Shown: in pieces, positions 38,548 to 43,915 of the stretch
Numbering within the stretch: the stretch's first letter is position 1
Layout of the letters: the number at the start of each line of letters is the position of its first letter
Assembly: GCF_900890425.1 (NCBI RefSeq)
Contig: NZ_CAAHFG010000001.1
Span: 2,480,001 to 2,544,000, forward strand
Source: Pontiella desulfatans
GTDB taxonomy: Bacteria; Verrucomicrobiota; Kiritimatiellia; Kiritimatiellales; Pontiellaceae
Direction: 5' to 3'
DNA: 64,000 nucleotides
The notes under the pieces: model-generated
What the model was told of the DNA's origin: nothing
What the model saw: only the letters and a program-made list of their open reading frames with translations
The model's database searches: none
Translations under genes and position numbers: made by a program

Positions 38548-40269
38548 CTAATAGGTTTTGTAATTTGGAAGGCCGAAGATGTCGATGTGGCTGGCGAGGG
38601 ATTTGCCGGCACGTTTTTCCTGGATTGATCCCGGCTCACGCATCTTGATCGCGAACCCGTCCAGCGGTAGCACTTGCTTGATCCGCTCAAGCATGTCCGC
38701 AGCCGCCGGATCGTAGTAGACGGTTCCATCATCCGGGGAATGGAGCACCAGAAGGGTGTTGCCAAGATAGAGATTGAAGTAGCCCGCTGTGCCCTGCAAC
38801 TGAACCATGTTTTGGTGAACACTGTTTACAAAGCCCGCACCACGCAATGTTTCAAGAGCCTTCTTCGCATTTCGGGGAACCGTTTGGTTCGAGCCCTTTT
38901 GATAGATCTGGATCTCGATCTTCGCCGGATCGGTGATGGGCGCCACCGGTGCATTCGATGTTTTTGGCAACGGCGGCGGTGCCACCGAGGGGTATTGCTT
39001 CGATGCGGGAAGCCCCACAATGTCGATGCGCTTCGTCAGGTCACCCATGAACCGGGACTGCATCGAATCCTTTGGGCGCGGGATCATACGGTGCTTCGCA
39101 TCCAGGGGGATGATCGACCGGAGCTTTTCCACCGCCGGTTGAGCTGCGGAATCGTAGTACACCGACTGCGCTTGGGAACGTATGAGGGAATCGATCGAAT
39201 CGTTGCCCAGATGCAGCTCATGGTAGTCGGCTTGCTGCTGAACGAATCGTTTCCGGTGCACATATACGAATGGATAGCGATGGAGCGCCAGGACCCCCAA
39301 CATTTTTTCCAGGGCGCTTTCCGCCATCCCGCTTGAACCAAAATACCAAACATGGATTTCCAGGTCGTCCGGAGTCAATGCCGCAAGCTCCACCTCCACA
39401 ACCTGTCCATCAGGCTTGGCAGGCAAGGAATCCTCTTTCACCACCGGCTCATCATTCTCCGGCACCTTCTCTTTTTCATCGGTCAACGAAGCGAGCTGCT
39501 CAAGCTTTTGAATCCGATCCCGTTCCACCTGGCGCTTCACTTTCTCGGCGGCCTCCTGCTCGGCAAGCTTTGCAAGCCGCTCCACCTCGGTCTCCAAATC
39601 CTCGATGGTCTGGCTTTCGTCGCCTACCCAGGTGGCCGGATCCATCGTGTCCGGCTGCGCCTCGGTATATTCGGGAGGTGCCGGGGCGTCCACCGGAGCC
39701 ATGGGTGGCCTCGATTTCCACACCAGCACGCCGCACAACCCCACCACGAGCAACAATAGTAACCAGACCATCTTGCTCTTTTGCGAACGAACCACCACGC
39801 GGTTCGGTGTCCAGCCCTCCGGCTGTACCGTTGCCCGCCCCTCTTCCAATAGTTTGCCGACCTGCTCGACAATGGCCGGGTGGTAGGACTCGAAGGGTTT
39901 CGGGAATGCATCGATCCACTGGACGTGGCTGAGATAGTAGGCCATGTTCTTGGTGAGCGTGAATTCCTCCACACGTACCGGCAGGATCTGCATGTTGCGC
40001 CCAATGGCGTGGTTCACCTCGCGCAGCACGTGCGGCGATTCCGCCGAACGGCGCGTCAGCAGCAACAGCATCACCGAGCACTGTTCGAGCCCATTAATGA
40101 TCTGTTCCGCAAAGTCCGCCCCGCCGCCAATCTCCCGCGGCGCAAACCAGCACAGGAATCCCCGCGCCTCCAGCACCTCGACCAGTTTCCCCGCAACCGC
40201 CGCATCCTCCGACGCATGGCTAATGAATGTCTTGTGTTTCTCCACGATCTGATTCCCCACTTCGTTCAT
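38548..40269 (-). CDS. TIR-domain membrane protein with coiled coil and duplicated C-terminal domain
   Basis: A 573-residue protein. TIR domain at about 11-140 (TFISHASEDAAVAGKLVEVL, WFAPREI, MLLLLTRRSAESPHVLREVN); E84 in HVLREVNHA sits where the NADase glutamate lies in bacterial TIRs. One helix at 167-184 (MVWLLLLLVVGLCGVLVW), a Pro-rich linker, and a coiled coil at about 220-262 follow. Residues 303-430 and 447-569 are two copies of one unrecognised domain (both contain YFG/IYQKGS-like starts, YHELHLGN or YFNLYLGN, VYYD and IDI-GLP). The topology suggests the TIR domain is in the cytosol and the repeats outside the membrane. Its ATG overlaps the stop of the upstream TIR gene (ATGA), so the two are translationally coupled. 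Confidence 0.85.
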   Translation of the reverse strand: MNEVGNQIVEKHKTFISHASEDAAVAGKLVEVLEARGFLCWFAPREIGGGADFAEQIINGLEQCSVMLLLLTRRSAESPHVLREVNHAIGRNMQILPVRVEEFTLTKNMAYYLSHVQWIDAFPKPFESYHPAIVEQVGKLLEEGRATVQPEGWTPNRVVVRSQKSKMVWLLLLLVVGLCGVLVWKSRPPMAPVDAPAPPEYTEAQPDTMDPATWVGDESQTIEDLETEVERLAKLAEQEAAEKVKRQVERDRIQKLEQLASLTDEKEKVPENDEPVVKEDSLPAKPDGQVVEVELAALTPDDLEIHVWYFGSSGMAESALEKMLGVLALHRYPFVYVHRKRFVQQQADYHELHLGNDSIDSLIRSQAQSVYYDSAAQPAVEKLRSIIPLDAKHRMIPRPKDSMQSRFMGDLTKRIDIVGLPASKQYPSVAPPPLPKTSNAPVAPITDPAKIEIQIYQKGSNQTVPRNAKKALETLRGAGFVNSVHQNMVQLQGTAGYFNLYLGNTLLVLHSPDDGTVYYDPAAADMLERIKQVLPLDGFAIKMREPGSIQEKRAGKSLASHIDIFGLPNYKTY

Positions 40270-43200
40270 TCACTCTTGGTTTCGGCCTTCACCCAGTGCT
40301 GATAGGATGCCGCCACCTGTCTAAGCGGCTCCCACGCCGGCAGCAAGTTGTGCACGTAGCCAATCCCCATTTTGCCGGCGGGAAACTCCGCTCTGAAAAA
40401 CCGCGCTTCCGTTGGACGGTAGAAGACCACTGCTCGACCTGCGTTTTCCGTGCGAGTCAATTCGCCACGGAACCCCCAAGGTTCCAGCGAAATATTCCAT
40501 TCGCCCACCGCCACAAAAACATCACCGGGTTTCACCCCAGACCGTGCGCCGGGCGAGTTTGGCAACACCCGGTTGCAACCGTAGACCATGGGCATCGGCT
40601 TGTTTTTTTCGTTATAAAATAGTTCACGCATCATAACGTTGCGTTCACTGAACGTGCGGGAAAAACGCGAAAATCCCTCGCGGCACAGACACGCGTTGCC
40701 GTCCACGCCAAAGAACGCACGCTCCACCATGTTTCCACGGATGTCGTAAAGCGCAGTACTGTGGGCAATCCCCCCTTGGTCGGCACAGGGCTGGCCATCT
40801 TTTCCGAAATGACGCCACGCAATCCTGCGCCCCCGCCCATCGTATTCCATCTCGATCCGGGCAAATCCCGTTGCCCCCGGGGAAGGCTTTCCATCAACAC
40901 CGAAATAGTGCTCCACCAGCACATTGCCCCGGGCATCGTAATCCTGTTCCATCCGGGCATAGCCCCCATTGTGCAGGCACGGCCTACCATCCGCACCATA
41001 GTATGCCCATGCGATGCAATTGCCGAGATCATCGTATTTCTTCACGAAACGGGCAATGCCGTCCTGTTGTGCACAAGGCTTTCCATCCATACCGAAATAG
41101 GACATGGCCACCACGTTCCCCCTGTCGTCGTATTCCCTCTCTTTGCGCGCATACCCTTCCTTGTGCATGACCGGCAACCCATCCACTCCCCAATAGGATT
41201 CCGCCGTCAAATTCCCCCGCTCGCCATACTCCCGTGTCATACGGGCATAGCCCTCCGGACTCAGGCATAGGGCCCCATCAACACCGAAGCACCGTTTTTC
41301 AACCGCATGGCCCCGTTGGTTGTAGCGCGTCTCCACCCCGGCAACCCCATTCCCGGCCAGGCATGGCTGGCCATCCACGCCAAAGCAACGCTCCGACTCC
41401 ACATGGCCGCGCTCGTCGTATGCCTTCTCGATACGCGCAAAGCCCTCCGCCCCCAGGCAGGGTTTGCCATAGAGACCGAATAGCGATTTCCCGACCATGT
41501 TTCCGCGCCCGTCGAACTCCTGAACCGAGCGCGCATGGCTTCCCCCGAAAAGCGCCGGTTGGCCTTCCGCATCGAAATAGCGCCACTCGATCAAGTTGCC
41601 GCTTGCATCATATTTCATCTTAGCCCGACTGCATCCATTGGCGGCGATGCAGGGTAGGCCGTCCCGACCGAAGTAGGTTTCCTCAAGCACGTTGCCGAAC
41701 TCGTCGTGCTCCGACGTCAAGCGCGCGTAACCCTCCTTGTGCAAGCAAGGTTTCCCGTCCTCATTGAAATAGGCCCATTCGATCACATTGCCGCGCCCAT
41801 CGTAGGAACGCGTTATCCGGGCAATGCCAGCGCGATGCAGGCAAGGCGTTCCATCCATTCCAAAGAACGACTGCTCGACCAGGTTTCCATGCTCATCGAA
41901 GGCCTGTGCATAACCGGCCGTATGCTCGTTGTTCAATGTGGGATTTCCCTCGGTGTCCCAGTAGTGGCGCTCCACCAAATCCCCGGCTTCGTTGTAGACG
42001 GATGTCAACCGACCGTAGCCATCGCGGTTCAGACAGGGTTTACCGTTCATGTCCCGAAACGAGACTGCAACAACATTGCCCCGATTGTCCCACGAAGCCT
42101 CGCCGAGGGCATAGCCACCGCGTTGCAGGCAGGGATTGCCCTCGCAATCGAAATAGGCCTCCTCCACCGGATAGCCCTTTGCATTATGCTTCATGGCGAT
42201 GGTCGCATAGCCGCCCTTACCGATGCAGGGTTGCCCATCGAGTCCCGCGAACCGGCCCTCGATCTGATTGCCATGCGTATCGTATTCCAAAGACAGTCGA
42301 GCAAACCCCTCTCGCACCACGCACGGCTTCCCGGCGACATCCTCGTAGGTTTCCGCGACCGCGTTCCCCCACTCATCGTATCTCCGGATGCTGCAGGCAC
42401 TTTGGTTTTCGTTCAGCACAGGATGCCCATCCGCATCCACCCACGCAATACGCAACCGGTTCGCGTTTGAATCGTAATCATAACGCCGACCAGCCACGCC
42501 GGTTCTAGTTGGACACGGTTTGCCATCCACCCCAAGGTATTGAACCGAAACCACCTGTCCGTTTGGCGCATATTCGAAGTGCAGGCCGGCAACACCCGAC
42601 GCATCGGTGCAGGGGGATTTGTTGCTGTTCAGGTAAAGGCGTTGCACCACCCGCCCCGCTTCATCATAGACCAACTCCCATGCGGCAATCCGGGAGCGGT
42701 GCCGACCAAAGACCATTCCGCCCCGACTATGTATTCCCGCCGTCTCCGTGGCGAGATGAACGGCCTTGGTCTGGTGGCGCCCTTCGCCGGTATCGCGAAA
42801 CTCCACCACCGACATATCCGGCGTGTAGAACCAGCGCTTGAGTTTCCGTCCATTGGTGGAGTATTCCTGCGCCCACTCCAAGGAACCATCAGCACGATAG
42901 TGGAATTCGCGATCGACCGGGCGGTCAGCGGTTTCGGTATCGACCGCCGCCCAAACGGAATCCGACCCGTTGACGGAGGACACCCGGCGCACCCGGCCTC
43001 GGCTTTTTTCAAACCGCCACGACACATGACGGTGTCCGGCCTGCTCTTTACAGAGTTTTTGAATACCCTCGGGCAGCCCGTTCTCTTCCACATAATCGAC
43101 ATAGTGGTGGATCTTCGTGCGGTTGAAGTCCCAAAGTCCGACCCCACCTGCAACTGCTCCCAGCAGCACCGCCGCACCGCACGCCGCAGCCACGGCAACA

Positions 43201-43751
43201 GTGCGCTTCTTTCTGCGACCATGCCGATCCCACAGCATGTCGAACCTTAAATTGAGGATACGGGCAACGATTTTGATAAAGGCTTTTTCCCGGCCCAACT
43301 CGGGAATGCTCGCACCCAGCAACGCATCTTCAGCCAGTTTTTTCAACGCGGGGCAAAAACATTCTTTCCCCGGAACCACCGCATCCACTTCGCCATCGAC
43401 AATGATCGGAATGATCCGGTCGGTTCGCCCCAGTTGGACAAAGCTTTCCACCTCGTGGTTCACATAGTGTTTCCCATCGGCATTCGGAATCGCGGAATTC
43501 GGGGAACAGACGACAATCAGGAATTGCGAGTCTTTCAACTCGCGGCGCAGCTCATCGGTCAGCACGCCGATGCCGAGGTCGGTCTGGTCGCGGAAAACAG
43601 GACGCACATGCTTTGGCAGGTGCGGCGCCTCCTTGCGAATGACGCTGGGCAAACGGTAGGTTTCGAGCCTGTGCTGCAACCACTTGGCCCATGCCTCGTC
43701 CCGATGGGAATAACTTATAAACGCATAGTGCCGATAACTGACGTCCCCCAT
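40266..43751 (-). CDS. TIR-domain membrane protein with 21 tandem 32-residue repeats and PDZ-like end
   Basis: Taken from the ATG at 43751 (AAAGG seven bases upstream), the protein has 1161 residues. TIR domain at about 8-170: YAFISYSHRDEAWAKWL, VFRDQTDLG, FLIVVCSPNSA, and HYVNHEVESF with E100 as candidate NADase glutamate. A membrane helix lies at about 184-206. Residues 374-1045 are exactly 21 units of 32 residues with consensus FG-x-DG-x-PC...GYAR...YD-x-RGN-x-x-E-x-Y, similar in style to RHS/WG-type repeats. The end (about 1046-1115, RVLPNSPGARSGVKPGDVFVAVG) is PDZ-like. It is probably a membrane receptor with its repeats outside and the TIR effector inside. The operon partner overlaps its stop. 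Confidence 0.85.
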   Translation of the reverse strand: MGDVSYRHYAFISYSHRDEAWAKWLQHRLETYRLPSVIRKEAPHLPKHVRPVFRDQTDLGIGVLTDELRRELKDSQFLIVVCSPNSAIPNADGKHYVNHEVESFVQLGRTDRIIPIIVDGEVDAVVPGKECFCPALKKLAEDALLGASIPELGREKAFIKIVARILNLRFDMLWDRHGRRKKRTVAVAAACGAAVLLGAVAGGVGLWDFNRTKIHHYVDYVEENGLPEGIQKLCKEQAGHRHVSWRFEKSRGRVRRVSSVNGSDSVWAAVDTETADRPVDREFHYRADGSLEWAQEYSTNGRKLKRWFYTPDMSVVEFRDTGEGRHQTKAVHLATETAGIHSRGGMVFGRHRSRIAAWELVYDEAGRVVQRLYLNSNKSPCTDASGVAGLHFEYAPNGQVVSVQYLGVDGKPCPTRTGVAGRRYDYDSNANRLRIAWVDADGHPVLNENQSACSIRRYDEWGNAVAETYEDVAGKPCVVREGFARLSLEYDTHGNQIEGRFAGLDGQPCIGKGGYATIAMKHNAKGYPVEEAYFDCEGNPCLQRGGYALGEASWDNRGNVVAVSFRDMNGKPCLNRDGYGRLTSVYNEAGDLVERHYWDTEGNPTLNNEHTAGYAQAFDEHGNLVEQSFFGMDGTPCLHRAGIARITRSYDGRGNVIEWAYFNEDGKPCLHKEGYARLTSEHDEFGNVLEETYFGRDGLPCIAANGCSRAKMKYDASGNLIEWRYFDAEGQPALFGGSHARSVQEFDGRGNMVGKSLFGLYGKPCLGAEGFARIEKAYDERGHVESERCFGVDGQPCLAGNGVAGVETRYNQRGHAVEKRCFGVDGALCLSPEGYARMTREYGERGNLTAESYWGVDGLPVMHKEGYARKEREYDDRGNVVAMSYFGMDGKPCAQQDGIARFVKKYDDLGNCIAWAYYGADGRPCLHNGGYARMEQDYDARGNVLVEHYFGVDGKPSPGATGFARIEMEYDGRGRRIAWRHFGKDGQPCADQGGIAHSTALYDIRGNMVERAFFGVDGNACLCREGFSRFSRTFSERNVMMRELFYNEKNKPMPMVYGCNRVLPNSPGARSGVKPGDVFVAVGEWNISLEPWGFRGELTRTENAGRAVVFYRPTEARFFRAEFPAGKMGIGYVHNLLPAWEPLRQVAASYQHWVKAETKSE
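40617..42632 (-). repeat. 21 tandem coding repeats of 96 bp
   Basis: These are the DNA units for the 32-residue repeats of the TIR protein. The period is constant at 96 bases over 2016 bases, with no spacer changes. Individual units are strongly diverged, so they are old protein repeats under selection and not recent slippage products. Confidence 0.85.
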
Positions 43752-43915
43752 ACCCCTGCCTTTCCCTTGAACCCCACAACACACCATTCATTCACTTAAA
43801 AAGTATGAATGCAGAAGAAATAATGCACACGCGCGACAGATTCAATAGAAATGCGCATCGAACCACATCCTGCATTCCAGCAGGACGGGCCACGGAAACG
43901 AGCTTCGCCCTCCCC

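Follow-up and report, generated by a model that had tools for sequence, protein, structure and literature searches.

The window, a 64,000-nucleotide stretch of DNA from Pontiella desulfatans, harbors on its minus strand a gene (40266..43751) for a protein of 1161 residues in which a TIR domain, a transmembrane (TM) segment, a juxtamembrane domain, 21 repeats of 32 amino acids and a PDZ-like end follow one another, and which, with moderate probability, acts as an extracytoplasmic receptor whose TIR domain makes an NAD-derived signal (or depletes NAD) that is read by effectors in trans. The corresponding reading frame is open over 40266-43787 (1173 residues counted from the first possible start); the ATG at 43751, which the initial annotation had proposed, is the better-supported start, because homologues begin approximately ten residues before their AFISY motif and the sequence 'aaggcagggg' lies just upstream. 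That annotation had also described a single protein carrying a TIR domain, a membrane helix, the repeats and a PDZ-like end, and all of these were found, in that order, within the one frame; what it had overlooked was the juxtamembrane domain between the helix and the repeats. A PDB sequence search with the receptor returned no significant match.

The repeat array (40653..42668, minus strand; residues 362 to 1033) is made up of 21 units, each of the 20 intervals from one unit to the next being exactly 32 residues, and displays an identity of 0.33 at lag 32, versus a maximum of approximately 0.10 among 1000 shuffled sequences (best lag between 10 and 69), which together confirm the perfect periodicity claimed for it at the outset. 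The DGxPC and GYAR motifs are present as had been reported, and are accompanied by YDxxGN. Two profiles of the YD/RHS type score above their cut-offs (RHS_repeat of Pfam, 27.4 bits versus 22; YD_repeat_2x of NCBIfam, 32.7 versus 15.8), and an AlphaFold model of the repeats, with pLDDT above 90 over their length, predicts two beta strands per unit and is closest in structure to the cores of RHS proteins and the YD shells of teneurins (Z up to 12.2). Judged from these profiles and the model, the repeats form the known YD/RHS ribbon in a variant with a unit of 32 residues, and the long beta-rich ectodomain that had been expected is thus predicted to be a beta-ribbon of the RHS/teneurin type. One cysteine per unit, at position 20, is found in 16/21 units of the window protein and in 70% of 471 family units, and falls in the part predicted to be extracytoplasmic; a disulfide ladder built from these residues was considered and set aside, the spacing of the units making pairing between neighbours unlikely. 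Positive selection on the repeats was looked for and not found, with dN/dS mostly at 0.15-0.3 and with high dS values that arise in part from the alignment of non-equivalent units.

The receptor contains one hydrophobic segment, 19 residues long (residues 185-203; 43143..43199, minus strand), which lies within a modelled helix spanning residues 170-210 and is flanked by six lysine or arginine residues on its N-terminal side and two on its C-terminal side. The same asymmetry, counted over the 15 residues before and the 15 after the segment, was observed in 20/20 proteins, and this positive-inside pattern places the TIR domain inside and the repeats outside. Repeat-only proteins of related genomes further begin with segments that resemble signal peptides, as judged by eye. 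Between the helix and the ribbon lies a conserved extracytoplasmic domain (42762..43130, minus strand; YYADYVExxGVPxGI...), modelled as beta-rich with pLDDT mostly about 90, which the alignments mark as the hallmark of the receptor family. The positive-inside pattern, the signal-peptide-like starts, the modelled YD ribbon and the exchange of effectors described below together provide good support for the arrangement first suggested, that of a membrane sensor with its TIR domain in the cytoplasm and a beta-rich ectodomain outside. At the far end of the protein, the degenerate PDZ-like domain (40329..40592, minus strand) was upheld only in part: homologues and a fold match to the PDZ domains of GRASP and RseP argue for it, at Z scores of 6-8 that are also the range of common arrangements and in a region modelled at pLDDT of approximately 45-85, while PDZ_6 reaches 19.7 bits (7e-4) against a Pfam cut-off of 27, and 21-23 bits, likewise below the cut-off, in the homologues.

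The cytoplasmic TIR domain (residues 8-145; 43317..43730, minus strand) is matched by Pfam TIR_2 above its cut-off (1.5e-11), and weakly by PADLOC models. In an N-terminal AlphaFold model (mean pLDDT 84), its nearest solved structures are the TIR domains of SPARTA and SARM1 (Z 13-15, with 15 for SPARTA), and MyD88, TLR and SEFIR domains score close behind. The SPARTA and SARM1 domains are NADases, and the same fold is also found in TIR domains devoid of that activity. The putative catalytic glutamate E100 (codon at 43452..43454, minus strand), which had been assigned to the usual NADase position, does align there and is unchanged in 20/20 aligned proteins; its equivalence to SARM1 E642 is drawn from the WVxxE motif and the TIR fold match rather than from a printed structural alignment. 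The invariant glutamate and a modelled fold nearest to that of NADase TIRs lend indirect support to the view that the domain is likely catalytic.

The family to which this protein belongs was delineated by scanning 84,980 species genomes with a four-row repeat alignment, the fourth row of which was edited to widen the pattern and represents a search device rather than a natural sequence; matches were confirmed by tblastn using the unedited window row. Queries of genome and viral collections with the full-length protein had returned nothing, the peptides chosen being too specific. The scan identified 21 loci, all from metagenome-assembled genomes (MAGs), of Akkermansia and other Verrucomicrobiales, of Thermoguttaceae and other Planctomycetota, of Hydrogenedentota, and of Bacteroidales/Rikenellaceae/Alistipes/Phocaeicola. 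Two loci from rabbit samples are labelled Clostridia and Acetatifactor, and are perhaps misbinned, given sequences very close to the Akkermansia copies; two others (L036 and L068, genome G234, Akkermansia sp. RGIG4751) are identical in sequence. The search for the same architecture that had been proposed earlier was thereby rewarded, as the TIR, TM, juxtamembrane and 32-residue repeat order is encoded by nearly every locus whose 5' end is intact, and the PDZ-like end by some of them as well. The 19 homologous N-terminal regions share 27-41% identity with the window protein, and E100, the AFISY motif and residues P227/G229 of the juxtamembrane domain are invariant among them. The number of repeats varies from 4 to 34 in the stretches examined and their spacing is nearly always 32.

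The receptor family is rare but real, and extends across several phyla. A juxtamembrane profile found matches in 2/388 genomes of the window's phylum, Verrucomicrobiota in the broad sense, which also includes Akkermansia sp. RGIG4751. Within a single order around a Rikenellaceae genome the count was 4/393, and within the phylum to which a Thermoguttaceae genome belongs it was 2/392, a scattered occurrence that suggests horizontal transfer. No relative was found in viral contigs; plasmid records gave TIR matches only, and phage records a single weak match to the repeats and none to the TIR-TM-juxtamembrane portion, so that these plasmid and phage records carry no sign of mobile carriage. Proteins with an N-terminal TM segment and diverged 32-residue repeats but no TIR domain (L044-L049) occur widely in one genus that shares its phylum with Akkermansia. 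A literature search returned no report of a TIR domain joined to YD/RHS repeats or to a periplasmic sensor, although a prior description may exist.

The ectodomain is a transferable sensor module. The juxtamembrane domain and repeats are found on a Ser/Thr kinase at one locus (L107; Pkinase 1.5e-44), on an nSTAND1 NTPase at another where the 5' end is missing (L059; 5.5e-28), and at a third on membrane segments with no recognised effector (L105); such constancy outside the membrane and exchange within is the behaviour expected of a receptor's sensor. Tandem paralogues display the effector half homogenised and the ectodomains differing, as judged from their alignment: those at L065 are 100% identical over approximately 420 bp of TIR-TM sequence and approximately 70% identical in the repeats, and the L053/L055 pair follows the same trend. 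The kinase-bearing form, in a genome of the order Bacteroidales (L107:5049-14155), lies among FHA-like and PP2C-like genes. At a further locus (L056:2597-8921) a full-length receptor gene is followed by a TIR-less copy and then a repeat-only fragment, a run that resembles either a reserve of repeat cassettes or decay.

In the window itself, the receptor gene is adjoined only by a second TIR-TM gene (38548..40269, minus strand; TIR_2 2.8e-21), the start of which overlaps the receptor's stop by 4 bp (ATGA), and by no RyR gene or other recognisable effector. The second protein resembles the TIR part of the NCBIfam model Thoeris_type3_ThcB4 at 39 bits, far below the cut-off of 220, and its C-terminal half contains two similar stretches of approximately 115 residues that have no Pfam match. 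Upstream of the receptor gene are a polyphosphate kinase gene and an exopolyphosphatase-like gene, neither of which is seen beside the relatives. A TIR-TM-TPR paralogue, approximately 40% identical in its TIR domain, lies elsewhere in the same genome between hypD-like and hypE-like hydrogenase maturation genes (L003:6374-8797; G000:C2, ~44.4-46.8 kb).

Among the relatives, RyR-domain (PF02026) genes lie within a few kilobases of the receptor gene at L060, L061, L063, L064 and L106, and genes for TM-TrkA/RCK proteins, some ending in an RyR or RyR-like stretch, are found near it at L059, L061, L064 and L106; the RyR protein at L063 additionally matches SLATT, weakly and under the cut-off (0.0056). 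Further neighbours are TIR-TM-WD40 and TIR-TM-TPR proteins and a protein that resembles a cyclase at a score under the cut-off. The RyR, RCK-RyR, nSTAND and other TIR genes found near relatives are of the kind associated with conflict systems. RyR genes are present in 9/18 host genomes (the window genome and 8/17 others) versus 12/241 and 9/101 in background sets (5-9%), an enrichment with a Fisher p of ~6e-7 that serves as a guide only, because the genomes are not independent and the background phyla are only partly matched; about half of the host genomes, which as MAGs are perhaps incomplete, carry no detectable RyR gene. TIR proteins make 2'/3'cADPR, which phage proteins with RyR domains bind or cleave (PMC13232231). 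Of the RyR domains from host genomes, 13/13 have histidine, tryptophan and aspartate spaced as H75, W78 and D117 of that study and 8/13 have the H100 position, these assignments being made by spacing only. The RyR-domain neighbours of the relatives point to a signal of the cyclic-ADPR type read by other proteins, rather than to NAD depletion.

The compact L106 cluster (L106:2037-11255) contains, with its receptor, an RyR gene, a PrsW-like gene, an M48-like peptidase gene, a TM-RCK gene and a second RyR gene; genes of the M48, PrsW-like and zinc-ribbon types are likewise found around L060/L093. In the window genome, two RyR genes lie on a separate contig beside a different TIR gene, which makes a reader acting in trans possible there. 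A run of genes in that region (L073:8408-16292; G000:C4) codes for an nSTAND1-ankyrin protein, for a TIR-TM protein whose end is PDZ-like and for a TM-RCK-RyR protein, and a small RyR gene is close by; the first residues of the nSTAND1-ankyrin protein, which lack a Pfam match, we take to resemble DUF4062.

According to the reading that we favor, the receptor would be a single-pass membrane protein projecting outside the inner membrane a YD ribbon of approximately 42 strands, set on the juxtamembrane domain and tipped by the PDZ-like end. The ribbon would recognise a ligand or a state of the envelope, and the signal would cross the one TM helix to the TIR domain, which would oligomerise and, as E100 and the fold suggest, convert NAD+. 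The most likely output would be a nucleotide of the ADP-ribose type, to be read by effectors with genes at other sites, which in the relatives would commonly be RyR-domain and TM-RCK-RyR membrane proteins; NAD+ depletion would be the alternative output. The product of the overlapping second TIR-TM gene would probably form a complex with the receptor. The computations themselves show the architecture, the topology pattern, the conservation of E100, the predicted fold, the modularity and the association with RyR genes in relatives, whereas we infer that NAD+ is cleaved, what kind of signal and ligand are involved, and that the receptor may serve in phage defence. The RyR pathway is hardest to apply to the window locus because no RyR gene is adjacent to it.

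The lack of an effector gene beside the window gene, together with a TIR fold closest to that of SPARTA, a depleting NADase, would fit a receptor whose clustered TIR domains simply destroy NAD+, as in SPARTA or TIR-STING, with no need of messenger or partner; the repeated occurrence of RyR and RCK-RyR genes near relatives suggests instead a signal with a reader, and a second TIR gene, frequent as it is, would then have no evident use, so that we regard such a suicide mechanism as rather unlikely. Much the same low probability attaches to a receptor unrelated to defence, sensing envelope state or mediating cell-cell adhesion with its TIR domain as a scaffold or mild signal source: the YD ribbons of teneurins are adhesion ectodomains, the repeats are under purifying selection (as the dN/dS values above indicate), and the same ectodomain is carried by a kinase beside FHA and PP2C-like genes, yet the sporadic distribution, the conflict-type neighbours and the invariant catalytic glutamate speak against it. 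The match of the repeats to RHS cores might also recall a polymorphic toxin or surface effector in which they form a delivery or shell module. That reading we consider highly improbable and have rejected, as the TIR domain is N-terminal, precedes the TM segment and faces the cytoplasm, the TIR end is the conserved part, and the C-terminus is PDZ-like and matches no toxin profile.

A more specific form of the favored reading, in which the ribbon senses an outside ligand, the TIR domain makes a cyclic-ADPR-type messenger and the response comes from an RCK membrane protein with an RyR domain, perhaps an ion channel, is put forward tentatively, as a possibility somewhat doubtful in its full extent. 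To our knowledge, the bacterial TIR immune proteins described so far detect infection from within the cell; a TIR receptor whose ribbon lies outside would, if this pathway exists, give bacteria a compact system shaped like that of the Toll-like receptors, and would provide a natural setting for studying how RyR domains handle cyclic ADP-ribose signals, a question that concerns animal ryanodine receptors as well.

The comparison with animal Toll-like receptors extends to a repeat ectodomain, one TM helix and a cytoplasmic TIR domain. Those proteins are of type I, with an N-terminal LRR ectodomain and a C-terminal TIR domain, whereas here the order is reversed, a YD ribbon replaces the LRRs and the TIR domain is likely enzymatic; the likeness of architecture provides no evidence of common descent. 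With RHS proteins and teneurins the receptor shares a ribbon of two-stranded units and the YDxxGN motif, but has a strict 32-residue unit with an added DGxPC....GYA part and no toxin end. SPARTA TIR-APAZ and SARM1 share its TIR fold and the position of the catalytic glutamate, but sense nucleic acid or NMN/NAD, in contrast to the extracytoplasmic ectodomain found here. The RyR genes beside its relatives keep the ligand-residue spacing of the phage RyDEP/RyR-domain proteins (PMC13232231), but are chromosomal, lie beside TIR receptors and are in some cases fused to TM-RCK proteins, and so are probably effectors or regulators rather than viral countermeasures. Thoeris, finally, likewise employs a TIR protein that makes, as is likely here, an ADPR-type signal for a partner. 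The ThsB_TIR profile of Pfam matches the window protein weakly (20.2 bits versus a cut-off of 21.2), some homologues do pass that cut-off, and PADLOC gave no ThsB match for the window protein. Unlike Thoeris, the TIR domain here belongs to a protein that crosses the membrane once and carries a long ectodomain, the operon contains a second TIR-TM gene and no adjacent ThsA-type effector, and the partners found in relatives are of the RyR and RCK-RyR types; the receptor may thus work in the manner of Thoeris, with its sensor placed outside.
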